Source: Paracoccaceae bacterium
GTDB taxonomy: Bacteria; Pseudomonadota; Alphaproteobacteria; Rhodobacterales; Rhodobacteraceae
DNA length: 32,961 nucleotides
Reading direction: 5' to 3'
Assembly: GCA_026713305.1 (NCBI GenBank)
Contig: JAPOOS010000070.1
Location: forward strand, 1-32,961
Below are positions 7,901 through 22,914 of this stretch, piece by piece. A program made the position numbers and the translations under genes. The notes under the pieces were generated by a model. It was not told where the DNA came from. It saw nothing but the letters and a program-made list of their open reading frames with translations, and did no database searches. Position 1 is the stretch's first letter; every line of letters starts with the position of its first letter.

Positions 7901-8955
7901 TGGCGGTTGCCACGCGCGACTGGAATGCGCTTGCCCGCAGATCCCGATATATCCGCCAGTTCCAGAATGCCGTGCTCATCAGCTTTCTGACCGTCATTTC
8001 CATTCCCGTGGTTCTGCCTTTCTTCTGGGTCCTGACGATTTCGTTTTCGGCCAGGACGGGCGGCGTCGAATCTGCGGTGCTGTGGCGGGCCTGCGGCGTG
8101 CTGGTGCCTGCGGTCATTGCCTACGTTGTTGCGCATCTGACCTTGAAGTCGGTCAGGCGCCGCCTGTTTGCAGCCGCGGCCCTGACGCTGCTGGCAATGA
8201 TCGCGCTGACCGTCACAGTGGGCAATGACCTGCATCTCAACAACTACCGCTTTCTGGTCAACCCCAACCTGGTTGAAGACCTGCGGGGCGCCGCCACCGC
8301 CGGCGGACAGTTTCCCTGGGTGTGGGAGGCATTCTTCAACTCTCTGGCGGTCGCCGCTTCCTCGACGCTGTTCAAGGTTTCGATCGCCACGTGCTGCGGC
8401 TACTACATTTCAAGGTACAACTTCCTTGGAAGGTCGGCGTACCTGCAGTCGCTGCTGATTCTCGAGGTGTTTCACCCCTGGATGCTGACCATACCGATAT
8501 TCCTGGTCATTTTCTGGATTGGGCTGCTGAACACTCTGGCCGGCCCGATTCTGGTGCTCACGGTAATCGACTTGCCGTTTTTCATCTTCATCATGAAGGG
8601 CTTTTTCGATGCGGTTCCCTGGGATGTCGAAATGAGCGCCATGACCGACGGCGCCTCGCGAAGGCAGGCGTTCTGGCATGTCGTGCTCCCGCAGGTCCGG
8701 TCGGGCATCATTGCGATTTCGGTTCTCGGCTTCATCAGGGGATGGGAAGAGTATGTGTTCGTAACGGCGCTGCGAACGGGAAACTCGTACTGGGTGATGT
8801 CCACCTATCTCTACTATGTTGCCGATGACGTGATGGGCGTCGACTATGGATTGGTCGCTGCTGTCAGCGTGTTCTACATGATGCCCAGCCTGCTGCTGTA
8901 CATGTTCTTGCAGCGATACCTCACACAGCTGACTCTCGGCGGGATCAAGGGCTGA
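7900..8955 (+). CDS. ABC transporter permease (MalG/UgpE-type) with an extra hydrophobic insertion near the N-terminus
   Basis: 351 aa overlapping the upstream stop by 1 nt; EAA loop SAMTDGASRRQAFWHVVLPQVRSGIIAISVLGFIRGWEEYVF; additional hydrophobic segments VLVPAVIAYVVAHL and LFAAAALTLLAMIALTV. Confidence 0.92.
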   Translation: MAVATRDWNALARRSRYIRQFQNAVLISFLTVISIPVVLPFFWVLTISFSARTGGVESAVLWRACGVLVPAVIAYVVAHLTLKSVRRRLFAAAALTLLAMIALTVTVGNDLHLNNYRFLVNPNLVEDLRGAATAGGQFPWVWEAFFNSLAVAASSTLFKVSIATCCGYYISRYNFLGRSAYLQSLLILEVFHPWMLTIPIFLVIFWIGLLNTLAGPILVLTVIDLPFFIFIMKGFFDAVPWDVEMSAMTDGASRRQAFWHVVLPQVRSGIIAISVLGFIRGWEEYVFVTALRTGNSYWVMSTYLYYVADDVMGVDYGLVAAVSVFYMMPSLLLYMFLQRYLTQLTLGGIKG

Positions 8956-10025
8956 TGGCACAAATCGAACTGCGAAGCGTATCCAAGCACTGGGGACCAA
9001 CCGTCGCCGTCGACGGCATGAACCTGGCCCTCGAGAACGGCGAGTTCGTTGCCATTCTCGGTCCTTCGGGCTGCGGAAAGTCGACGACGCTGTTTCTGCT
9101 CGCCGGCATATATGCGCCAACCTCCGGGGACATCTGTTTCGACGGCGCTCGCATCAACGACGTGGAACCTCGGGACCGCAATGTGGGAATCGTGTTCCAG
9201 TCCTACGCGCTGTATCCCAACATGACGGTGCTCAAGAACCTGCTGTTCCCGCTCAGGTTCACGTCGGTCAAAAGCGAGGAGGCGCTGCGCCAGGCGAAGG
9301 CAATCGCCGAACTGGTGCAGATCGAGGAGTTGCTCGAACGTCACCCCTCCCAGCTTTCCGGCGGCCAGCAGCAGCGTGTGGCGCTTGCGCGAGCCCTTAT
9401 CAAGAAACCCAACCTGCTGCTGCTTGACGAACCTCTGTCCAACCTCGATGCCACGCTGCGCCTGACCATGAGGGGCGAAATCAAGCGCATCCAGCGGGAA
9501 TTGCGGGTCACCACGATTCTGGTCACGCACGACCAGGTTGAGGCGACCACCATGGCGGATCGAATCATCTGCATGAATGCCGGCCGGGTCGAGCAGATTG
9601 GCACGCCGGAGAACCTGTACCGCAAGCCCGACAGAACGTTTGTCGCGACCTTTGTTGGCTCTCCTCCCATCAATCTCATTGACGGGCATGTCAGGAACGG
9701 CAGTTTCGCGGTCGGCCAAAAGCGCATTCCGCTGTCCGGATCTTGCCGTGACGCAGACGTGACGCTTGGACTGCGGCCCGAACTGATCTCGGTTGCCGAA
9801 ACCGGCCTTCCGTCGGAAATCACGAACATCGAGCCGATGGGACGCGAGATTCTGTACACGGCGCAGTCGGAGATTGGATTGTTCCGGTTTCTGGAGGCCA
9901 CTCCGCAACCCCGCATGGCGCTGGAGGACCGGGTCAGGCTGCATGCAAATCCCGAAGATGCCCTGTTTTTCGAACAGGAAACAGGCAGCAGAATCGAGGG
10001 GTTGAGTCTTGCAGCGTTTTCCTGA
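8955..10025 (+). CDS. ABC transporter ATP-binding protein (MalK/UgpC family)
   Basis: Walker [10 protein letters not shown], signature [15 protein letters not shown], Walker [14 protein letters not shown]-loop VTHDQ; C-terminal regulatory-type extension. Confidence 0.96.
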
Positions 10026-11046
10026 GGCCGGCGGCGGCTACCGCCTGGTCGAGGAGTTCGGGCGACCGGACAGCGCCTGGACTGAATCCGCAACCGGAGG
10101 CGATTCGAGCCCGGAACTGCATGACCGCCTTCGCAGGTCGAACCCGGCGCTGAACGAGATCAGACTCCGACAACCGCCCAGGCCTCTTCCGGAAGGGAGG
10201 CGGCTGCGAGTGGCTTCGTGGAACCTCGAGCGATGCAAGCACGTGGAAGCCACGGCGGACAAGATCCGCAGGACAGGAGCCGAGATTGTCCTGCTGAGCG
10301 AAATGGACATTGGAATGGCCCGCTCGGGAAATCGGGACACGATCGCGGAACTCGCTGAGCTGCTGGACATGGGCCACGCTTCCGGCGTGGAGTTTGTCGA
10401 GCTGGGGCTGGGCGACGAACGCGAAGTTGCCGAGTGCAGTGGCATGGCCAATCGCCTTGGGTTGCACTGCAACGCCGTGCTCTCGAGTTGCGAGTTCACA
10501 CGGGCGGAGATCGTGCGCTTGGGCGCAGGAGGACAATGGCTGGCCGGCCGGACCGGAAAGGGGCAGCCTCGCGTGGGCGGCCGGATTGCAGTGATGGTTT
10601 GCGTCAATCGTGAATCGCCTCTCTGGCTGGTTGCGGTTCATTTTGAAAGCGAGGACGGGCCGAGCGACCGGCTTCGGGAAGCGGAGCTCCTTGTCTCCGA
10701 CATTGCTCTTCACTGCGGCGACGGACCGGTCGTCATTGGCGGCGACTTCAACTTCAATTCGCTGGCCGCCGCCGGGATGGCCGGCGATCAATTGCTGGCA
10801 AGTCCGGAAGAACACGAACCGGCTTTCTCCCTCCTGCGCACTGCCGGCTTTGCCTGGGAAGCGGCGAACACGACATGCCCGACAACACGCCGGCATCCCT
10901 GGGACGGCAACTTCGTCTCGCAGAAGATCGACTGGTTTTTCGTGCGCGGTGTCAATGCGCGAAACCCGCAAGTGATTCCGGCATGCACCTCCGAGGACCA
11001 AAACCTCTCGGATCATGAACTGTTGGTTGCAGACATTTCCTGGTGA
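10009..11046 (+). CDS. Endonuclease/exonuclease/phosphatase (EEP) family hydrolase, coupled to the ABC operon
   Basis: TTG start overlapping the ATPase gene by 17 nt; EEP motifs [37 protein letters not shown] and C-terminal [11 protein letters not shown]. Confidence 0.87.
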
Positions 11047-11193
11047 GCGGCGGGCCTCCGGCCAGTTCAGTCAGCGAAAACGAGGAATGGACGGGTCGAA
11101 TCGGCGCTCTGCAGGTCTGCTCTTCCATGATCGACCCTGCCATGCCGACAGTGGCCGCGGGAATCGCCCCGCAACGGCGCCATGACCGACGTG

Positions 11194-11546
11194 TCAGCGA
11201 GTTGACGCCAAATGCCCGGAATTCGCCCGGCGATCAGCAGACCCGTTCTTCGTCCTGGTTTCCGGGTCAGCCCGGGGGATGTGCGGCCTCAAGACGAGAT
11301 TGCCCAGTCCGGCCCCGAGCCGACCGATGCAAGCAAGCTTCGGCGCCGTTTCAGGAAGCGCTTCGCTGACGCAGGTGCAGTTCCGCAAGGCAAGCGCCCG
11401 GCATCGGGTCAACATTCGGGACAATCGGCAGGAATCGTTGTAAAGTTCGAAATCGCAGGCGACATCGAAATGCCGCTTGAAGTGGTCGATGCCCGCGCTT
11501 TCCATGAATTCGGCAATGACGATGTCCGGCGTGTCGTTCGACCTGC
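11194..11546 (-). pseudogene. Truncated/decayed D-isomer-specific 2-hydroxyacid dehydrogenase (N-terminal remnant)
   Basis: Minus frame reads TPDIVIAEFMESAGIDHFKRHFDVACDFELYNDSCRLSRMLTRCRALALRNCTCVSEALPETAPKLACIGRLGAGLGNL, matching the expected N-terminal pattern (MPDIVI.EFM......L...FDV.YD..L......L.......ALIVRN.T.V...LL..AP.L.v.GR.G.GLDN). An ACG codon sits where the start Met is expected, and NAD-binding and catalytic parts are missing. Confidence 0.62.
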
Positions 11547-11666
11547 GATGGAGAGGCGAATGGACGCTTGGCCGACTCACTCGTTGCGATTGCAGGCTGC
11601 GGTTGCAAGCGCCGGCGCCTGCCGGCGGCAAAGGGAACGGAAGATCAGCAAGGAGGTGAATGGCAG

Positions 11667-12557
11667 TTGACGGAATTTGTTGCGGTGCTGATGTCCGACC
11701 GCCGCCGGAAGATCTTGAACGAGGAAACGCTCGAGCGGGCCCGCCTCCGCCTGGACGGGCATTCGCCGACATGGCTGGAACAGGGCGTTGCGGCCGAGTT
11801 CGGCGTGCCGCGCCTGCCTGCCCGTCCGGAGTCCTTCAGAGACGAATTCGACAGGCTGGGAATTGACTTGGGAATCGTGCCTGCCGCCAATCGCCGAAAG
11901 AGGCTCTTGGTGGCGGACATGGACTCGACAGTCATCATGCAGGAGGGTCTGGTCGAACTAGCGTTCCTGGCGGGCTGCGGCGACGAGGTGGCGGCGATAA
12001 CCAGCCAGGCCATGAATGGCTTCATCAACTTTCGGGAAGCTCTGGTCCACCGTGTCGAGCTCCTTCGTGGCATGCCTGCAAGCATCGTCGACCGAGTTTG
12101 GAACGAACGGATAGATTTCACGCCGGGCGCCCGTCAGCTCGTCGCAACCATGCGGGCGGACGGAGCGCATTGCGTGATCGTGTCCGGCGGGTTCACTTTG
12201 ATTTCGGGGCGAGTGGCAGCGGTGCTGGGATTCCAGGAACATTGCGCCAACGACCTGGAAATTGTCGACAATGTCCTGACCGGCCGTGTCAGGCCGCCGC
12301 TGTTGGGTCGCGAGAGCAAGAGTGAGATCCTCGTGAACCAGATGGATTCGCTAGGCATAGATCCGGGCGATGTCCTCGCCGTTGGCGACGGTTCCAACGA
12401 CATCGACATGATTTCCCTCGCCGGGTTGGGAGTGGCGTTTCGTGCCAAGCCGGCGCTTGCACAGCACAGCGACGTCCGGATCAACCACTCCGATCTCACG
12501 GCTCTCCTGTTCCTGCAGGGCTACAAGTCCCGGGAATTCCGCCGCCAATGGCCATAG
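11667..12557 (+). CDS. serB: Phosphoserine phosphatase SerB (HAD superfamily)
   Basis: TTG at 11667 preceded by AGGAGGT (11651-11657); HAD motifs LLVADMDSTVI, VIVSGGFT, AVGDGSNDIDMI. The ORF-track start at 11568 precedes the SD and is less likely. Confidence 0.92.
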   Translation: MTEFVAVLMSDRRRKILNEETLERARLRLDGHSPTWLEQGVAAEFGVPRLPARPESFRDEFDRLGIDLGIVPAANRRKRLLVADMDSTVIMQEGLVELAFLAGCGDEVAAITSQAMNGFINFREALVHRVELLRGMPASIVDRVWNERIDFTPGARQLVATMRADGAHCVIVSGGFTLISGRVAAVLGFQEHCANDLEIVDNVLTGRVRPPLLGRESKSEILVNQMDSLGIDPGDVLAVGDGSNDIDMISLAGLGVAFRAKPALAQHSDVRINHSDLTALLFLQGYKSREFRRQWP

Positions 12558-13541: not shown

Positions 13542-15569
13542 TCAGTCGTCCTGTTGACGCCTGCCTTCCACAACCGTGGAGGCAAGCTTTCCCGTCAGTT
13601 CGGCCATGCGGTCGAACTCAAGCTCGAAGGTCCCAAGCCCCATGGTTTGCGACCGCAGCTCGATTATGAGATCATGAGTCTCGGACTGAGGCATGCTTGC
13701 CTTGATTTCGTCCCAGCCGTTCCAGCCCTCCCTGGGCGCAAATCCCAGAATCTGACCCCTTCGCCGCAGGATTGTGCTTTGCGCATTGGCCGTGAACTGA
13801 GTGGGAATGAAGATCTGCACCGAGCAGACGGGCTCCAGCAGCACCGGACTGCAGTCCGGCAGGGCTTGCTTCATCGCCAGAATGCCCGCCTTGCGGAATG
13901 CCCAGTCGGAACTGTCGACGGCATGGTACTTGCCGTCGTAGAGATTGACCGAGATGTCTATGACCGGGAAGCCGAGCGGCCCGCTTTCGCAATAGTCGCG
14001 CACGCCGGCCTCCACGGCCGGAATGTACTGCTTGGGCACGACGCCGCCGGAAATCGAGTCGGTGAACGAAATCCCGGACCCTCGGGGAGTTGGCCTGATG
14101 TCGAGATGCACGTCGCCGAACTCTCCATGTCCACCGGACTGCTTCTTGTGCCGGGCGCGGTGCTGAATCGATCTTCTGATGGATTCCTGGTAGCCGGTTG
14201 CGGGGGCCTGAAGCCTTACGCTTGTATTGAAGCGGCTCTTGAGCTTCTGCGCCATGATCTGAAGGTGTGTGTCGCCCTGCCCCCAAATTGCCGTCTCCCG
14301 CGACAGTTCGTTGAGGCGTCTGGAAATTGACGGGTCTTCCTCGATCAGTTTGGCAATGGCCGCCGAGAGCTTGACCTCGTCCTCCCACTTTTCCGGAACA
14401 ATCACTGCCGCATAGACCGGCGCCAAAGGTTCAGGCCAGGGCATGGCGTCGCCAACCTCCCGCGGCGTCAGCGTATTGCCCGTCAGCACGCTTTCCAGGC
14501 GGCCCATGGCCACAACGTCGCCACAGCCAGCTGACGAAATCTTGTCCATCTGGCCGCCAAGCATGCTGTGCAACCCGCTGACCCTTGATCCGCCGAAGGA
14601 CATGCCGTCGTCGACCTTGCCTCGCCAGACGCGTCCGAACGAAATCTTGCCCGCGTAGGGGAGGTGCCGCGTCTTGAACACTTGAACAACCGTGTCGTCT
14701 GCCGGGACTGCGTCCTTGCGCGCCAGTGTGGTTTCGACGCCAGGCACTTCGTGCCGCAGCGCCTTGAGAAGCCGCTTGACGCCCGAGGCCTGTTCGGCGC
14801 TGCCAACCAGAACCGGCATGATCAGCCCTTCCTGCAAGTCCCGCCGCAGGTGCTCGAAGATTTCCGCGGCCGGGGGAACGGTTTCCTCGAACAGGAGCTC
14901 GAGGAGATCGTCGTCGAAATCGGCCAGCGACTCCAGCAGGTCCAACCTGGCCTCCTCGTTGCGGTCCTGCATTTCGCTCGGGATCTCGATCAGTCTTGAG
15001 CGTTGTCCCGGCGTGTACTGGTAGTAGCGTTCCGCCGCCAGATCGAGGTATCCGTCTGATCCTTCCTTGCCAGGAACCGGAATTTGGCGCAGGACCAGGG
15101 GTCTCACGGCCACTTCCTGCAGAGCCGACATCAGGTCGGTGATGGATTCCGAGGCCACATCGAGCTTGTTGATGAAGAGAATCGCCGGAATGTCGTTCTG
15201 CTCTATCGACTTGAGCACCGGGGTCAGCATCGGGACCTTTGTCGCTTCCGGGTCGCAGACCACGACTGCCGCATCGGCCACCGCCAGCGCCGCCTTGGCA
15301 TCCTGCTGAAGCTCGACCGATCCTGGGCAGTCCAGAAATGTCCACGAATCGCCTAGGTACGTGGCCTGCGCAACGTTGACTTCGACGCTCATGTTGCGTT
15401 CTCTTGCCTCCTGCGACGCGTCGCCTGCCGTCGTGCCGTCTCTGATGGTTCCGCGACGTGGTATTGCTTCAGCCTCAAAGAGGAGACCTTCAAGGAGCGA
15501 GGTCTTGCCACTCAGATAGGGGCCCACGATTGCGACGCAACGTGGGCCTGAACTTGAATTCTCAGACAT
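13542..15569 (-). CDS. Elongation factor G-like GTPase (EF-G paralog)
   Basis: Start probably at 15569 (MSENSSSGPRCVAIVGPYLSGKTSLLEGLL); G1 GPYLSGKT, G3 DCPG, G4 NKLD; EF-G domain IV/V motifs (GGHGEFGDVHLDIRP, GFPVIDISVNLYDGKYHAVDSSDWAFRKAG). Confidence 0.92.
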   Translation of the reverse strand: MSENSSSGPRCVAIVGPYLSGKTSLLEGLLFEAEAIPRRGTIRDGTTAGDASQEARERNMSVEVNVAQATYLGDSWTFLDCPGSVELQQDAKAALAVADAAVVVCDPEATKVPMLTPVLKSIEQNDIPAILFINKLDVASESITDLMSALQEVAVRPLVLRQIPVPGKEGSDGYLDLAAERYYQYTPGQRSRLIEIPSEMQDRNEEARLDLLESLADFDDDLLELLFEETVPPAAEIFEHLRRDLQEGLIMPVLVGSAEQASGVKRLLKALRHEVPGVETTLARKDAVPADDTVVQVFKTRHLPYAGKISFGRVWRGKVDDGMSFGGSRVSGLHSMLGGQMDKISSAGCGDVVAMGRLESVLTGNTLTPREVGDAMPWPEPLAPVYAAVIVPEKWEDEVKLSAAIAKLIEEDPSISRRLNELSRETAIWGQGDTHLQIMAQKLKSRFNTSVRLQAPATGYQESIRRSIQHRARHKKQSGGHGEFGDVHLDIRPTPRGSGISFTDSISGGVVPKQYIPAVEAGVRDYCESGPLGFPVIDISVNLYDGKYHAVDSSDWAFRKAGILAMKQALPDCSPVLLEPVCSVQIFIPTQFTANAQSTILRRRGQILGFAPREGWNGWDEIKASMPQSETHDLIIELRSQTMGLGTFELEFDRMAELTGKLASTVVEGRRQQDD

Positions 15570-16222
15570 TGGTTCTCCGCCAAACAAAAGCCGCGGCAAT
15601 GCATGCAATGTCCGGATGTTCGCCGAGCGTTTCCGGCGGGCATCGGATGCCGAAGCCGCAATTCTTTCAGGTTCAAATCCCAGAAGGCGTACACCAAATG
15701 GCATGGGGATTCCAAGCAAGGGAGAGTGCGAGCCTGTGTCATGCCCCAATGTTTGACTTGAAAGCCGTTGCCAGCCATTCCGGCAACTCATTCGTCACAT
15801 CGAAGCTTGCAAGTGCCGCCGTCAAGCCTGCGTGTCTCAACAGCCTTCCCCAGGGGTCACGTTCTCGGGGCGCCTTGCCAAGTCAAGGTGGCGCGGCGGC
15901 TCAAACAACGCAATCCGGATTCGGGACAAATGCAGCGCGTCATTGCCAGCCAAAGGACCATGAGAGCGCCGTGGAGTGTTGCTTGACCTGGATGCAACAG
16001 GAGGCGTGCCGGCATTTGATGCGCCGGTCCACCTGCACTGTGCGCATGCTCAAAGAGAACAATGACCCGGCACAATGGTGCGTGACACTGGGAAAGCGGG
16101 GAAATGGCAGCCCTTTGTTCGTGCTCTGAGTTCCAGCCGCTGTCGGGTCCTCCCGTAAAACTGCCATGGGCATGCGCGCATCAAGCCGGCACATGCAAAG
16201 CGTGTTGCAGTTCGGAAACAGA

Positions 16223-16246
16223 GCATGCTGGGTTGGTCCAGCATGC
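16223..16246. other. Perfect 9-bp hairpin in the GHKL-gene upstream region
   Basis: GCATGCTGG (16223-16231), loop GTTGGT, CCAGCATGC (16238-16246); no T-run. Confidence 0.6.
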
Positions 16247-16794
16247 GCTCGAGAGTTTGATGGAACTTGGCCGAGCGACTAGAAAACGGGACCAACCAAG
16301 CCCGCCTCTGGCGCCATTCAGCATCGGCTGTTCACCCGTCCGATCAGCTGTTGAGCGGACTGCCAATTGAGCGAATGTCGCTTGCCGCATCTGTCAAACC
16401 CACATTGCGCAAACCACAATGACACTCCTCATGATGTTAACCCGACATATTGCAGTGGCTCCAAACTTGTGGCGAAGCCACAGGGCCGGAACCGGAACCC
16501 TGCACCAACTCAACTGTGCAGTGGTTCCCACGGGCTCTGCGAACAGCAGAGCAATGCCTCGGCTTTCCTTCAGGTGTGCACTGACTGCAGCGGCGCTCGT
16601 TCAGACCCCTGAAGTCGCCTTGCAATGCCATGTGCTTGAACTGCAACGCATTGCAGCCGGAATCCGAATTCCGGCCACCAACACCGAACGGCCCTTTGAC
16701 TGCGACCCTGACAATACAGCCTGACATGGGAAGTCGCGTCCGGATCAACGCCCGGATTGGAAGGTGAAGATCTGCCTGTTGCCATTTTGAAAGT

Positions 16795-19443
16795 GTGAAA
16801 GAGACAATGACCCCAGCAGGAGAAACATCAGTGACCATAGAACAGGAAATTGAAGAACGGACACTTGTGCGGCTGCACAACGCCGGAATGCCCGTTGATA
16901 GGATACCGGTAGAATTGAGCACACGTTTCTTGGAGCGCTTTGGCGAGCAGCTCCATTCTTCACTGCAAAAGGCATTCGAGGAATTGATTTCAAACGGATG
17001 GGATGCCGGGGCGAACGCAGTCGACGTGCATGTTGATGCGGAGTTGCGTGCGAAGAATGCTGCGATGGCAGTGTTCGACAACGGCGCCTCGATGGATTTG
17101 GACGGACTTCGCAAGCTATGGCAAATTGCCATTTCTCCGAAGGAGGGCCGCACGAGGGAACACGGTCGCCCGCTTGTCGGAAAGCTTGGCATTGGCAAGC
17201 TCTCGACCTTTGCGCTCGCAAAGAGTCTCACTTATGTCTGCAAGGCAAACGACGGTGTAGTCAGACGCGTTACGATGAACTACGGCGAAATCGACTCCAA
17301 GTCGACCGATGCAAATCGTCTGATCAATGATCTGGAATTGGAGGTATTCGAGCTTGACGACAAGCTTCTGGCCAACTTGCTGACGACTGTGGTTGGCGGC
17401 GAGGAAATTTTTCGATTGATCAATGATCCCCAAGAGTGTGGTTGGAAGCGAGACAGTCAAGGAGGCGGTCAGGAAGAGTTTGGGGGAGAGCCCTCGAAGC
17501 TGGATCGAGACAGGAGCGAGACATGGACTCTCGCAGTGTTGTCCAACCTAAAGCCAACTGGCCGCAAACTGAAGATCGGGAAACTTCGCAGGATGTTGGC
17601 CGCCGCACTTCCCTTTGGATCAGAGATGACGATTCGAGTCAATGGAGAAAGGCTAAAGTCACCAAAGCAGGATGCTCCCTTGGCAAAAAAGTGGATTGTC
17701 GGACCTGATCTTGAAATCGACGAATTGCGGGTTGACGGAGACGAGAGCGGCAATGAACCTGCCAGCTCGACGAGCATTTCCGTCAGCTCCGGTTCGAAGC
17801 CCTACCCGTACATTGAATTGCCAGGAATTGGCCGCGTTACTGGCATGGTAAAACTGTTCGACGACAAAATCAGTGTGGGGAAGAGCGAAAAGCACGGCGC
17901 GTCGAATGGATTCCGCGTAAATGTTCTTGGCAGAGTCGTAAATCTGAAAGATCCGAGTTTCGGCGAGAAAAACCTAAGTCACGCTGCTTGGGCGCGATTT
18001 CGCATGACCGTACGTGCTGATGGCTTGAACAAATTTCTTGCGACCAATCGCGAGCAGTTCAGGGACTGCCCCGAATTGAAAGTTTTCCGTGCCTTCCTGC
18101 GAAAGACGTTTGGCAAGGCAAGAACGACATTTGATGACCACAAGAGAGTGACCATGCCTGACGGTGGCGATGTGCTCTTGAAATCGCTTGGCTTGGTTAC
18201 CTTGAACCCATTGCGCAACGTTGTGAATGAAACGCTTCGTACAGCGCCGGCCATAAGCGGAATGTTTGACGACTCGGGCATAGTTTATCGGAATGAGGCA
18301 AGATTGTCGTGGCGAGAGGATACAGGCGCAAACATATGCAATGCCATTGAGCAGGCAAGGTTTGCAGAGCTGGATGACGAGTGCTTTGCAAAGTTCATGA
18401 TCAAGGACAGATCAATTCTGGTAAACTCCAACCATCCCTTCGCTGTTGACCATTGCAGCCAGGCCGAGAGGGAACTGATTCGAACAGTGGCAATGGTCGA
18501 TTTGCTTGCCGATGCCTATGCGCTGGACATCGGAATGGACCCAAGTCAACTCAAGAGACTACGCGCCCATAGGGACAGGCTCATGCGATTTCGAACGATG
18601 GAAAGTCGTAGATCGGCAGCCGCAGTCGCGCAAGTCTTGCAGGATGCGCAAATCAGGGGCAAGGATTGCAGCCTCCTTGAAGCGGCTGTTTCGGATGCCA
18701 TGCGCCTTCTGGACTTTGACGTTCAGGAACTCGATCAGGCAGGCGAGCCAGACGGGATTGCAAACGCATTCGCATTGCCGACAGGTTCCCCAACGACAAG
18801 GGAGACTCCTCAATCGTCACTGTACAGCTTCACGTTTGAAGCCAGGTCTTCAAGAGACGGGTCATCAGCTTCAGGAAACATAGGGCTTGATGCCGCGGCG
18901 GAGCGCCGCAAGCGACACAACGCGAACTATGCTCTTGTTGTGGCGCCCGGGTTTCAGGAAGGATCGCTAGCAGACATGTGTGCACAGGAGAAGGTTACGC
19001 CCATGACCACCGGCGATCTTGGGAAGCTGCTTGAATGCACCGCCAGGCACGGAACCATTCCCGCAAACAAGTTTCGCAAGGTATTCGAGCGCTACAGACC
19101 GCATGAAGTTTCTTCCTGGGTCGACAATCTGCCCTCTGAATTGGAGATCGAGAAAAAGCTGACGATTGATGTCTTCACAAAGGCGCTTGAGAAACTGAAG
19201 GGAATGGCGCCAAGTTCCCTGTCCGCCTCATTGATTGCATATGTTTGCCAAGACAAACTGAATGTATTCGGAGTGGAGGATGCGGACGTGATTTCGCTGG
19301 CCAAGGGGCTGCAAGCAATTGTTCCTGACCTGGTGGCTGTTGATGGAGACAGGATTCTTGTCAACGCCAGCGCCGCACATGTCGCCGAAGCAATCAGCGC
19401 TCAATTGGAAGACCTCCATGAGAGAGTCCAGAATGTCCAGTAG
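16795..19443 (+). CDS. GHKL (Hsp90/MORC-like) ATPase fused to a PD-(D/E)XK nuclease-like C-terminal region; candidate defence protein
   Basis: 882 codons. N-box FEELISNGWDAGANAVDV, G1-like VFDNGASMDLDGL, G2-like GRPLVGKLGIGKLSTFALA, later FLATNREQF. C-terminal GEPDGIANAF...LYSFTFEARSS...GLDAAAERRKRHNANYALVVAPGF...VTPMTTGDLGKLLE resembles restriction-endonuclease-like folds with D653 and E682-x-R684. Confidence 0.78.
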   Translation: MKETMTPAGETSVTIEQEIEERTLVRLHNAGMPVDRIPVELSTRFLERFGEQLHSSLQKAFEELISNGWDAGANAVDVHVDAELRAKNAAMAVFDNGASMDLDGLRKLWQIAISPKEGRTREHGRPLVGKLGIGKLSTFALAKSLTYVCKANDGVVRRVTMNYGEIDSKSTDANRLINDLELEVFELDDKLLANLLTTVVGGEEIFRLINDPQECGWKRDSQGGGQEEFGGEPSKLDRDRSETWTLAVLSNLKPTGRKLKIGKLRRMLAAALPFGSEMTIRVNGERLKSPKQDAPLAKKWIVGPDLEIDELRVDGDESGNEPASSTSISVSSGSKPYPYIELPGIGRVTGMVKLFDDKISVGKSEKHGASNGFRVNVLGRVVNLKDPSFGEKNLSHAAWARFRMTVRADGLNKFLATNREQFRDCPELKVFRAFLRKTFGKARTTFDDHKRVTMPDGGDVLLKSLGLVTLNPLRNVVNETLRTAPAISGMFDDSGIVYRNEARLSWREDTGANICNAIEQARFAELDDECFAKFMIKDRSILVNSNHPFAVDHCSQAERELIRTVAMVDLLADAYALDIGMDPSQLKRLRAHRDRLMRFRTMESRRSAAAVAQVLQDAQIRGKDCSLLEAAVSDAMRLLDFDVQELDQAGEPDGIANAFALPTGSPTTRETPQSSLYSFTFEARSSRDGSSASGNIGLDAAAERRKRHNANYALVVAPGFQEGSLADMCAQEKVTPMTTGDLGKLLECTARHGTIPANKFRKVFERYRPHEVSSWVDNLPSELEIEKKLTIDVFTKALEKLKGMAPSSLSASLIAYVCQDKLNVFGVEDADVISLAKGLQAIVPDLVAVDGDRILVNASAAHVAEAISAQLEDLHERVQNVQ

Positions 19444-19687
19444 CCCATACAGTACTGCGCTGAAACCGACGCGCCCGTTTCCGGCTGGAATGGCGCCAAA
19501 CACAACCCTGGAACGGTGGGCTGCCAGCGCAATCGGAGAAGCGCGGGCGGCAAACGCCAATGATGCGCGTTTGGAGTGGATGGACGCCGACGAAGCAACT
19601 CGATCATTTGCGGGGCTTCGGTTCGATGCTCGGCAGCGTGAGGAGTTCCGGCGAATTGCCCGTGTGCTGAACAGGCATGGCCTGTGA
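19433..19687 (+). CDS. Small 84-aa protein of unknown function, overlapping the GHKL gene stop
   Basis: ATG at 19433 overlaps the upstream CDS by 11 nt; MSSSPYSTALKPTRPFPAGMAPNTTLERWAASAIGEARAANANDARLEWMDADEATRSFAGLRFDARQREEFRRIARVLNRHGL has plausible helical, charged composition and codon usage. Confidence 0.6.
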   Translation: MSSSPYSTALKPTRPFPAGMAPNTTLERWAASAIGEARAANANDARLEWMDADEATRSFAGLRFDARQREEFRRIARVLNRHGL

Positions 19688-19923
19688 GTTTGCCACGAAA
19701 ACAGAACACCGCACTCCGGTCGCAGGAACCACTTCGCCTCGCAATTGACGCCAAGGGACAGCCACCGAAGCACGTACGCAATGCTTCACGATCAATCCTT
19801 CTGCATTGCTGGACGCCGACAGGCGAGGGGAATATCCTTTCCTCAGGCGCATCGTCGGTCTCCCTGCAGGATCCGACCGATGCAGGGCAATTCGCCGGCA
19901 TGGCCGATCAATGGAATGGGTCG

Positions 19924-19944
19924 AACCGGCCGCAATGGCCGGTT
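19924..19944. other. Perfect 8-bp stem-loop upstream of the GMC oxidoreductase gene
   Basis: AACCGGCC (19924-19931), loop GCAAT, GGCCGGTT (19937-19944); no T-run. Confidence 0.6.
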
Positions 19945-20006
19945 GGCTCAAGGACAGCATGCCGAAGCCGCAATTCGACAAAACAGCGGACGCTGGCAAC
20001 GGACGA

Positions 20007-21623
20007 ATGACCGAAACAAATCCCTTTGGCAGCTTCGACTACATTGTCGTGGGCGGCGGAACAGCCGGCTGCGTCCTTGCCAACCGTCTGTCCGAAGGTC
20101 CCGGGAACCGGGTGTTGCTTCTGGAAGCTGGCGGCAAGGACAACAATCCATGGATCAAGGTGCCGATCGGATACCTGTACACGCAGCAAAACCCGCGCAC
20201 CGACTGGTGCTTTCAGACCGAGCCGGAGGCTGGTCTCAACGGCAGAAAGCTGAACTACGCACGCGGACGTGTGCTTGGCGGATGCTCAAGCATCAACGGC
20301 ATGATCTACATGCGTGGACAGGCGCGGGACTACGACGGCTGGGCCCAAATGGGAAACCGGGGATGGAGCTGGGACGATGTGTTGCCTCTGTTTCGAAAGT
20401 CCGAACACCACTTTGACTCCGCAAACGAGTTTCACGGAGTTGGAGGCGAGTGGCGCGTGGAGCGGCAGCGGCTGGGCTGGGAGATCCTCGATGCCTTCGA
20501 GACGGCCTGCAACGAAACCGGAATTCCAAAGACACCGGACTTCAACTGCGGCAACAACGAAGGAACCGGCAAGTTCGTGGTCAACCAGCGCAGGGGGCTC
20601 CGATGGAGCGCCGTGGACGGCTTTCTCAAACCTGCGCGCAGCCGCTCCAATCTGAGAGTTGTGACCGGCGCGCACGCAAGGCGCGTCGTGTTGGATGGAC
20701 GGAGGGCCAGCGGCGTCGAATTCTGGCTCGACAACAGGCTGTGCCGCGCCGACGCGGAAGGAGAAATCGTGCTGGCGGCGGGCGCCATCGGATCGCCGCA
20801 CCTCCTCCTGCTGTCGGGAGTTGGTTCGGCCGCCGACATCCATGACCAGGGCATTGCCGTCGTGCATGACCTGCCGGGGGTCGGACGAAACCTCCAGGAC
20901 CATCTGCAGCTCAGATTGATCTTTCGCGTTTCGAATGTGCTGACGCTCAACCAGAGCGCCAACTCCGTCTTGGGGAAAATCGGGATGGGGCTGCAGTTCG
21001 CGTTTCTGAGAAGCGGGCCATTGACCATGGCTCCGAGCCAGCTCGGTGTGTTCGCGAAGTCGGATCCATCACTGGAGACGCCGAACCTGCAATATCATGT
21101 GCAACCGCTGTCGCTGGACAGTTTCGGTGAACCGCTGCACGAGTTCCCGGCGTTTACGGCTTCGGTCTGCAACCTGCGCCCGGAAAGCCGGGGTTCCGTG
21201 TCCTTGAAGTCAGCGGATGCAAGGCGGCAACCGGCAATAGCGCCTTGCTACTTGTCGACTTTCAGGGATCGTCAGGTCGCTGTTGAGGCGATACGCCTGA
21301 CCAGAAGGATAGTTTCCGCGCCGGCCATGCAGCCGTATGAACCGCGCGAGCGCCTGCCCGGAGCCGAGGTGCGGTCGGACGAAGACCTGGTCAGGGCCGC
21401 CGGAGACCTGGGAACCACGATATTCCATCCGGTTGGCACATGCAGGATGGGAATGGACAAGGCCGCCGTTGTCAGCGACCGGCTGGCTGTGCGTGGGCTG
21501 GACCGGCTTCGCGTTGTCGATGCATCCATCATGCCGACGATCACTTCCGGCAACACAAACAGTCCCACGATAATGATCGCCGAGAAGGGCGCTGCGATGA
21601 TTCTCGAGGATGCCGCTGCCTGA
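20007..21623 (+). CDS. GMC-family oxidoreductase (choline dehydrogenase-like)
   Basis: FDYIVVGGGTAGCVLANRLSE FAD-binding motif, GRVLGGCSSINGMIYMRG, LAAGAIGSPHLLLLSGVG, DASIMPTITSGNTNSPTIMIAEKGA. Likely start ATG 20007 (MTETNPFGSF); the ORF-track start at 19806 is upstream of the conserved region. Confidence 0.95.
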   Translation: MTETNPFGSFDYIVVGGGTAGCVLANRLSEGPGNRVLLLEAGGKDNNPWIKVPIGYLYTQQNPRTDWCFQTEPEAGLNGRKLNYARGRVLGGCSSINGMIYMRGQARDYDGWAQMGNRGWSWDDVLPLFRKSEHHFDSANEFHGVGGEWRVERQRLGWEILDAFETACNETGIPKTPDFNCGNNEGTGKFVVNQRRGLRWSAVDGFLKPARSRSNLRVVTGAHARRVVLDGRRASGVEFWLDNRLCRADAEGEIVLAAGAIGSPHLLLLSGVGSAADIHDQGIAVVHDLPGVGRNLQDHLQLRLIFRVSNVLTLNQSANSVLGKIGMGLQFAFLRSGPLTMAPSQLGVFAKSDPSLETPNLQYHVQPLSLDSFGEPLHEFPAFTASVCNLRPESRGSVSLKSADARRQPAIAPCYLSTFRDRQVAVEAIRLTRRIVSAPAMQPYEPRERLPGAEVRSDEDLVRAAGDLGTTIFHPVGTCRMGMDKAAVVSDRLAVRGLDRLRVVDASIMPTITSGNTNSPTIMIAEKGAAMILEDAAA

Positions 21624-21906
21624 CAGAACCGCTTTCACCCGCTGAAATCCGGTTGCGCCGAAGCTTCCGTGGACCGGCCGCAGCTGGTTATGCGGATAAT
21701 GGTCGTCCAAATCAGCTTTGCGAGGAACAGCGTTCCGGGATGCCGCGCCGGTTTGAGAAATCAATGGCGGCAGAATCCGGGAAACCGGTTGCTAGAGCAG
21801 GGACTTCGTGATAGGCAGTCGCGGATACGCCTGCAAATTGACATGTTGCAGGACATTCGAACTTCGAAACAGACTAAAGTTAAGAAAAAACAGATTTGGA
21901 GAAAGC

Positions 21907-22914
21907 ATGAAAAGAATGCATTTTGCAAAAGGACTTGTGGTTTCCGCTATCGCCTTGGTACTAGGTGCCGTGACTCCGGCTCAAAGCCAGATGGACGAGA
22001 TAACGGTTGCCTACTTCCTGGAGTGGCCCATGCCGTTTCAGTATGCCAAGGTCAACGGCACATACGATGAAGAAATGGGCTTAGCTGTCAAATGGGTCAG
22101 TTTCGACACCGGCACGGCAATGTCGGCTGCCATGGCTTCAGGCGATGTGCATATTGCAGTGAGCCAAGGCGTGCCGCCCTTCGTTGTGGCAACCTCGGCC
22201 GGGCAGGACATCCAGGCAGTCGATGTGGCAGTGTCATACTCCGACAACGACAACTGCGTTGTTGCCGAAGGACTGGAAATCGATGCCTCCTCCGCCATGG
22301 AACTGGAAGGCAAGAAGGTTGCCGTGCCCCTGGGCACAGCGGCCCACTATGGTTTCCTGAGCCAGATGGCCCACTTCGGTGTGGACATCACAACCATGGA
22401 CATCGTGGATCAGGCTCCCGCTGAAGGCGCCGCGTCGCTTGCGCAAGGCGATGTTGACATGGTCTGCGGCTGGGGCGCCGCGTTGCGGCGAATGCTTGAC
22501 TACGGCAACGTGCTGCTAACGGGGGCAGAAAAGGAGGAGCTCGGCATTCTGGTGTTCGACGTCACGTCGGCTCCCGCTGGCTTTGTTGCCGAAAACCCCG
22601 AGGTGGTGGCCAAGTTCCTGAAGGTGACCGCGGATGCGAATGCCCAATGGAATTCAGGTGACAATGCACACATGCTCGAAGTCATCGCTCAGGATGCAGG
22701 CATGGATGCAGAAACCACCCTCACAACCATGAACACATTTTCGTTTCCCAGCATCGAGGATCAGTTGTCCGAGCGGTGGCTCGGCGGCGCCGCACAGACG
22801 TTCATGAAGGGCGTTGCGGACATATTCGTCGATGCCGGTTCGATCGACAGCGCTCTCAACTCCTATGAGGACGCCGTGAACATCGGGCCTCTGACCACAG
22901 CTTCGGAAATGTAG
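21907..22914 (+). CDS. ABC transporter substrate-binding protein (NitT/TauT type)
   Basis: Start ATG 21907 with signal peptide MKRMHFAKGLVVSAIALVLGAVTPAQS; ITVAYFLEWPMPFQYAKVNGTYDEEMGLAVKWVSFDTGTAMSAAMASGDVHIAVSQG; followed by TauB/TauC-like genes. Confidence 0.92.
   Translation: MKRMHFAKGLVVSAIALVLGAVTPAQSQMDEITVAYFLEWPMPFQYAKVNGTYDEEMGLAVKWVSFDTGTAMSAAMASGDVHIAVSQGVPPFVVATSAGQDIQAVDVAVSYSDNDNCVVAEGLEIDASSAMELEGKKVAVPLGTAAHYGFLSQMAHFGVDITTMDIVDQAPAEGAASLAQGDVDMVCGWGAALRRMLDYGNVLLTGAEKEELGILVFDVTSAPAGFVAENPEVVAKFLKVTADANAQWNSGDNAHMLEVIAQDAGMDAETTLTTMNTFSFPSIEDQLSERWLGGAAQTFMKGVADIFVDAGSIDSALNSYEDAVNIGPLTTASEM

Follow-up and report, generated by a model that had tools for sequence, protein, structure and literature searches.

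The open reading frame (ORF) at positions 16795 to 19443 of the window (the whole 32,961-nucleotide stretch of a Paracoccaceae bacterium contig analyzed here) is probably a horizontally acquired, degenerate restriction (R) component of a GHKL-type restriction-modification (R-M) system. Judging from its sequence, this copy most likely no longer cuts DNA, since its methyltransferase (M) partner has lost the SAM and catalytic motifs and R itself has lost the catalytic lysine. Catalytic motifs are damaged in R and in M alike, as would be expected of a disarmed system. The ORF has the extent given in a preliminary description of this DNA, with 882 codons, a GTG start and neither stops nor frameshifts; the ATG at 16810 may be the true start. 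The following features were annotated:

15717 to 21930, strand not applicable: segment without counterpart in the synteny blocks of the complete same-genus genome G1225 (synteny comparison)
16795 to 19443, plus strand: ORF for the GHKL ATPase and PD-(D/E)XK nuclease fusion (882 aa, GTG start at 16795), predicted R component of the restriction-modification family
16888 to 17319, plus strand: GHKL (Bergerat) ATP-binding domain, approximately residues 32 to 175 (Pfam HATPase_c_3, Foldseek, invariant residues)
17332 to 18054, plus strand: S5-like transducer region, approximately residues 180 to 420, with approximate boundaries (hhalign to a BbrUII/HgiDII-family protein, AF2 model)
18667 to 19044, plus strand: PD-(D/E)XK (restriction-endonuclease-like) core, approximately residues 625 to 750, with D653 and E682 present and K684 replaced by R (AF2 model, Foldseek, alignment)
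18844 to 18846, plus strand: codon AGG for residue 684, R here and K, the catalytic-motif lysine, in 57/57 homologs (alignment)
18904 to 18906, plus strand: codon CGC for residue 704, R here and H in 57/57 homologs (alignment)
19063 to 19374, plus strand: tentative C-terminal helical or winged-helix-like tail, approximately residues 757 to 860 (secondary structure of the model, weak Foldseek matches)
19418 to 19687, plus strand: an 89-codon remnant of the partner methyltransferase that overlaps the nuclease gene's 3' end (tblastn with the L021 and L022 methyltransferases)

The N-terminal part of the protein contains all the GHKL/Bergerat motifs that had been quoted earlier, with an N-box (E63 and N67), D95 and G97, and a glycine-rich lid (G129 to K135). 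Together with the S5 transducer that follows, this N-box (E..N), DxG and lid arrangement places the protein in the MORC-like branch of the GHKL superfamily. HATPase_c_3 (residues 56 to 173, E-value of 1.7e-14) was the only significant match in a Pfam scan. Residues E63, N67, D95, G97, G129, G132, G134, and K135 are invariant across the 57 homologs described below, and the ATP-binding residues are intact in the window copy. The AlphaFold model of the full-length protein, with a domain arrangement that is unreliable (pLDDT of 78, pTM of 0.46), matched the ATPase modules of SMCHD1, MORC2, MORC3, and Hsp90-type proteins at its N-terminus (Foldseek). An hhalign comparison with a BbrUII/HgiDII-family protein covered residues 36 to 452 over approximately 335 columns (E-value of 9e-14). 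With PADLOC, proposed in the preliminary description as a check, the only hits came from two models for type II restriction enzymes and fell within the ATPase part.

The PD-(D/E)XK-like nuclease region that had been read from the C-terminal letters was borne out by structure prediction. In an AlphaFold model of residues 560 to 882, built from 56 family members (mean pLDDT of 82), the order is strand (PDG), strand (FTFEA), helix, strand (YALVVA), helix, strand, helix. A Foldseek search of this model against the PDB returned HindIII (E-value of 3.6e-5), FokI (1.4e-3), AspBHI (3.9e-3), and Ecl18kI. Structure comparison recovered the alpha-beta-beta-beta-alpha-beta core, that is, the restriction-endonuclease-like fold whose absence would have counted against the proposal. 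When PDB sequences were searched with a profile of the C-terminal domain, nothing above noise was obtained, so this assignment draws on structure comparison and on weak Pfam matches among the C-termini (Mrr_cat in 16/56 members, best E-value of 1.8e-4, and FokI_cleav_dom in 4/56). DUF4263 (Shedu) had no Pfam match in the window protein at E-values up to 1, and it was absent among the 25 most-matched of 38 Pfam families for the 56 C-terminal domains. Beyond the core, helices and a hairpin with weak Foldseek matches to MarR and Cdt1/Orc winged helices form a tail that is, on the model, a possible and still tentative candidate for a DNA-binding part.

Used alone as a query, the window protein found no match in the genome-contig collection, and an alignment query was needed. 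The first full-length homolog (34% identity) was the one found among 386 genomes of the class, and the resulting two-sequence alignment, used as query against the species-level genome collection, retrieved 81 loci, including 57 full-length members with 25 to 58% identity and a whole architecture co-linear with the window protein. Retrieval of homologs relied on two peptide patterns surrounding the ATPase motifs, and members without those patterns were missed; several are metagenome bins, and neighboring genes were called mechanically. Members were found in Pseudomonadota, Bacteroidota, Actinomycetota, Bacillota, Verrucomicrobiota, Chloroflexota, Spirochaetota, archaea, and others, with a patchy spread over at least 11 phyla whose labels are scattered over the tree. 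In the genus of the window, one of nine genomes has a family member, and a survey of the order (395 genomes) yielded only one other full-length homolog (35% identity). The possibility, raised beforehand, that the homologs are strictly vertically inherited housekeeping genes does not agree with this rarity within the genus and this occurrence in many phyla. Searches of phages and plasmids with tblastn returned GHKL-domain matches only and no full-length member, and none of Pfam, NCBIfam and PADLOC has a model specific to the family. The family is a recurring and largely unnamed one. In a Duganella genome, a member (L078, 7872 to 8647) is cut off after the ATPase motifs by an apparent IS21-type insertion. 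In the Verrucomicrobiae genome that also holds L032, a remote second GHKL-nuclease gene (L180, 3 to 2658; motif PDG...YDTK) is paired with a methyltransferase, which suggests that the family is wider than its 57 aligned members.

The survey of homolog neighborhoods, suggested in the preliminary description, pointed to a two-gene R-M system of which this family would be the R component. Of the 57 full-length members, 52 have a relative of the first homolog's methyltransferase encoded no more than approximately 250 bp away (downstream in 29, upstream in 23), mostly within 60 bp of the nuclease gene and mostly touching or overlapping it. The partner is of the permuted N4/N6 type, with DPxxGSG and TSPPYLNAIDY motifs and a match to Pfam N6_N4_Mtase; three archaeal members counted among the 52 (L055, L064, and L067) have a shorter, distantly similar N4/N6 enzyme. 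An m5C methyltransferase (E-value of 1.6e-72) occupies the partner position in L037 and an unrelated N4/N6 methyltransferase does so in L080, while the contig of L072 ends where the upstream partner would be and no nearby methyltransferase was found in L032 and L041. For L032, an unlinked cognate methyltransferase was considered and rejected, since the intact one in that genome immediately follows a second, remote GHKL-nuclease gene of its own. Since a methyltransferase of a different class can take the place of the partner, as in L037, methylation appears to be the required partner activity. This exchange is the strongest sign that methylation matters, and with the 52 adjoining genes and the two replacements it argues that the family is an R-M system. 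The candidate uncharacterized defence effector of the preliminary description is a member of a patchily distributed conflict or defence family, but not a stand-alone one, as a methyltransferase adjoins R in nearly all homologs. A Z1-type helicase gene with a weak match to MzaC is found in 10 loci, and type I R-M genes lie beside L020 and L022. Behind the Z1 helicase gene of L038, L049, L052, and L062, a fourth gene of approximately 150 to 160 aa without Pfam match recurs.

The window gene itself appears to be horizontally moving, given the scattered phyla, its rarity in its own genus and order, its deviant GC3 and its absence from the stretches of G1225 that were read. Its G+C content is 52.9% and its GC3 is 0.58, against approximately 0.69 to 0.78 in the window's other coding genes. 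The left synteny block with G1225 ends at 15716 and the right one starts at 21931; in G1225 they are approximately 37 kb apart, and no nuclease gene was found within the stretches read. An exact empty site was not found, G1225 being the sole same-genus genome examined that shares both flanks and having them rearranged. A nucleotide search of the locus against plasmids gave no match. The window is no defence island, since its remaining scanned genes encode ordinary metabolism and transport functions, DNA polymerase III alpha, a HisRS-like protein and an EF-G-like protein. The latter gene (13542 to 15791, 749 aa) is a second, divergent copy, approximately 33% identical to the other EF-G of the genome, and is present in three of the nine genus genomes at E-values of 1e-100 or better, one match having an in-frame TGA.

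Within the nuclease core, the catalytic triad of the window copy lacks its lysine (R684). The strand of the E-x-R motif reported earlier in PD-(D/E)XK order is indeed present, but its E-A-R is atypical, as [D/E]-x-K is found in 57/57 homologs; the glutamate at residue 682 is shared with six homologs, the others having aspartate. Codon 684 and similar single-base calls depend on the consensus of a draft assembly (92% complete, 351 contigs). With K684R, H704R and the truncated methyltransferase, the window copy is probably nuclease-inactive, so the E682 mutant proposed in the preliminary description would be uninformative in this copy. Substitution of this lysine is tolerated in some PD-(D/E)XK enzymes, which counts against an inactive enzyme.

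The methyltransferase remnant matches the intact enzymes of L021 and L022 (tblastn E-values of 8.8e-11 to 3e-9, and 9.4e-14 in a whole-genome search) and is an open frame from an ATG that overlaps the 3' end of the nuclease gene. Its N-terminal portion (...LKPTRPFPAGMAPNTTLE) is followed by an in-frame jump, 60 to 70 residues at 43 to 48% identity and then a stop. Approximately 57 codons including the SAM motif (DPMAGSG) are deleted in frame at about 19508 to 19519, and everything beyond approximately residue 176, including TSPPYLNAIDY, is gone, that is, the catalytic half is lost. No intact copy of the cognate methyltransferase was found elsewhere in the 92%-complete assembly, only a fragment with stops on contig C142. 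This decayed fragment (L159, 4998 to 5517) belongs to the same methyltransferase family, includes the TSPPYLNAIDY region and adjoins two ATPase/nuclease-like genes with a C-terminal segment in common.

Substitutions along the frame were also elevated. The window copy has 25 changes at the 201 columns that do not otherwise vary in the close clade, against 0 to 4 in 12 comparable members and 19 and 23 in two outlying ones. Changes at conserved sites were approximately eight times as frequent as in its closest relative, the sister copy L020, an excess that is modest relative to its own changes elsewhere (odds ratio of 4.2, P of 0.023). The terminal branch length is 0.71 for the window copy, 0.28 for L020 and 0.12 to 0.15 for L021 and L022. 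Changes are still concentrated off conserved columns (12.7% at conserved columns vs. 31.9%), and a rough estimate gives approximately four stops if the excess changes were purely neutral, whereas none is present (P of about 0.013). The open frame implies that the decay is recent or that some function or constraint was retained, and some constraint may remain. In L020, the methyltransferase is broken by frameshifts and stops and the D-A-K motif is intact, indicating that an R frame can persist without M and that methyltransferase loss is not always coupled to nuclease inactivation. The frameshifted gene of L020 (3995 to 4600) has a stray duplicated nuclease-domain piece downstream and a type I R-M operon beyond. 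Thus, three of the five members of the nearest clade (the window copy, L020, and L032) retain a long R frame with no linked working methyltransferase. The open frames of the window copy and L020 would reflect either recent decay in both, or an R that is harmless without M as it cannot cut alone, or a retained non-cutting role. That R persists in this clade owing to an inability to cut without M, or to a new role as a non-cutting, ATP-driven DNA clamp, is in our judgment rather unlikely.

The same modest likelihood applies to the best of the alternatives for the window copy, in which, once its methyltransferase was lost, the GHKL protein was retained for a role other than cutting (as a DNA-binding clamp, a sensor or a regulator), with the 89-codon remnant possibly still translated. 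The fully open 882-codon frame, the intact ATP-binding residues, the changes lying mostly off conserved columns, the remnant being itself an open frame and the three clade members with long R frames all agree with such a function. However, the altered form was seen in one genome only, change is elevated at otherwise invariant positions, and recent decay accounts for the open frame equally well. We consider it improbable that the protein is an active stand-alone nuclease effector in which E-A-R is a working variant site and discrimination is independent of methylation, as in GHKL-Shedu VcSduA. This protein is a GHKL-nuclease fusion with no methyltransferase requirement (PMC12137116), and D653 and E682 are retained in the window copy, but the lysine is invariant in the 57 homologs, the family is found alongside methyltransferases, and DUF4263 had no Pfam match in the window protein and was not among the 25 most-matched of 38 families for the C-termini. 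Least probable is a functional R-M system whose unlinked methyltransferase could be missing from the draft assembly: the assembly is incomplete and fragmented and further operons of GHKL and cytosine methyltransferase genes are present (contigs C72 and C94), but the cognate remnant sits exactly at the gene position of intact relatives and the nuclease lysine is gone. The two operons (L160 on C72, L161 on C94) are cytosine-methyltransferase and GHKL ATPase pairs that each run off a contig end, and the source genome seems to hold several GHKL-type R-M systems. Of the readings considered, we favor a degenerate R component.

GHKL domains dimerize upon ATP binding and relay the signal through an S5 domain to an attached module, as in MutL, MORC, and Hsp90. 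By analogy, R proteins of this family, predicted to combine a MORC/Hsp90-like GHKL ATPase and S5 transducer with a HindIII/FokI-like PD-(D/E)XK nuclease and a winged-helix-like tail, would dimerize through the GHKL module when ATP binds. The dimer would engage unmethylated DNA and the transducer would relay the signal to the nuclease, which would cut, while in working loci the adjacent N4/N6-type DNA methyltransferase would mark and protect host sites. We infer this ATP-gated cleavage of unmethylated DNA for the family, on no member of which a biochemical report was found in the literature searched. ATP-gated restriction could be tested directly on intact pairs such as that of L022 (nuclease gene at 8007 to 10649, methyltransferase gene at 10630 to 11850). 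As prokaryotic cousins of MORC, SMCHD1, and MutL, GHKL ATPase-nuclease fusions bear on why a restriction enzyme needs such a clamp. The survey yields a well-bounded family with 57 full-length members, neighboring replaceable methyltransferases and an optional Z1 helicase. The window copy would be a natural example of how a system is disarmed, with methyltransferase and catalytic lysine lost and the frame open, and a warning that defence genes called on architecture alone may be inactive.

The preliminary description could not match the protein to a named system from sequence alone, but its kind has been described, namely the MORC/paraMORC R-M proteins (PMC2292703), and it has experimentally studied relatives in BbrUII/HgiDII and VcSduA. 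The BbrUII/HgiDII type II restriction enzymes (NCBIfam NF050001) have cognate m5C methyltransferases, with GTCGAC as the site of M.HgiDII (PMC5867850). They resemble our family in the GHKL and transducer module, which aligns, and in being encoded beside a DNA methyltransferase. Unlike them, the window protein scores 58.6 bits against a cutoff of 550, over residues 41 to 172 only and with its C-terminal part unaligned, is of approximately 880 aa instead of 659, and its family usually has a partner of the permuted N4/N6 type and not m5C. A phage protein labeled ParaMORC3 (PhiR44_1) was rejected as a member, as it is a BbrUII/HgiDII protein (751 bits) whose C-terminus is unaligned. In this P2-like phage (PV340563; L162, 2986 to 6034), the BbrUII/HgiDII-type restriction enzyme lies beside a Dcm methyltransferase gene.

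Five mza genes together make up MZA, in which MzaB is an ATPase and MzaC a Z1 protein (NCBIfam names). The likeness lies in the 10 family loci whose Z1-domain helicase gene weakly matches MzaC. MZA models had no match to the window protein at E-values of 0.01 or better, and the scanned window genes, with no Z1 or AIPR gene among them, do not make up this set of five. VcSduA (GHKL-Shedu, type I-D Shedu, formerly paraMORC3), for which phage protection needs both ATPase (E27A) and nuclease (K557A) residues (PMC12137116), shares with the window protein an N-terminal GHKL ATPase fused to a C-terminal PD-(D/E)XK nuclease and is experimentally anti-phage. In contrast to its DUF4263 nuclease, the window protein has no DUF4263 match and a fold that matches HindIII and FokI, and whereas VcSduA acts alone, the window family is paired with methyltransferases.

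The MORC and paraMORC1-5 proteins (Iyer et al., 2008; PMC2292703) are GHKL and S5 ATPases encoded in mobile operons together with methyltransferases, nucleases of the RE fold and helicases of superfamily II, a description shared by the window family with its methyltransferase, RE-fold nuclease and helicase. Among them, paraMORC3 carries an RE-fold domain as a fusion and occurs partly as a stand-alone protein (PMC2292703). Going by the published description (PMC2292703), its RecB-like domain (E-D-ExK) differs from the P[DE]G...[DE]xK nuclease motif and tail of the window family. In our own reading, the Z1 helicase is one helicase type of the third MORC/paraMORC operon type of these authors (PMC2292703). 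The general kind of system was thus described in 2008 (PMC2292703), BbrUII/HgiDII and VcSduA are its characterized relatives, and the present family appears, from sequence comparison, to be distinct from BbrUII/HgiDII and related to but distinct from GHKL-Shedu VcSduA.
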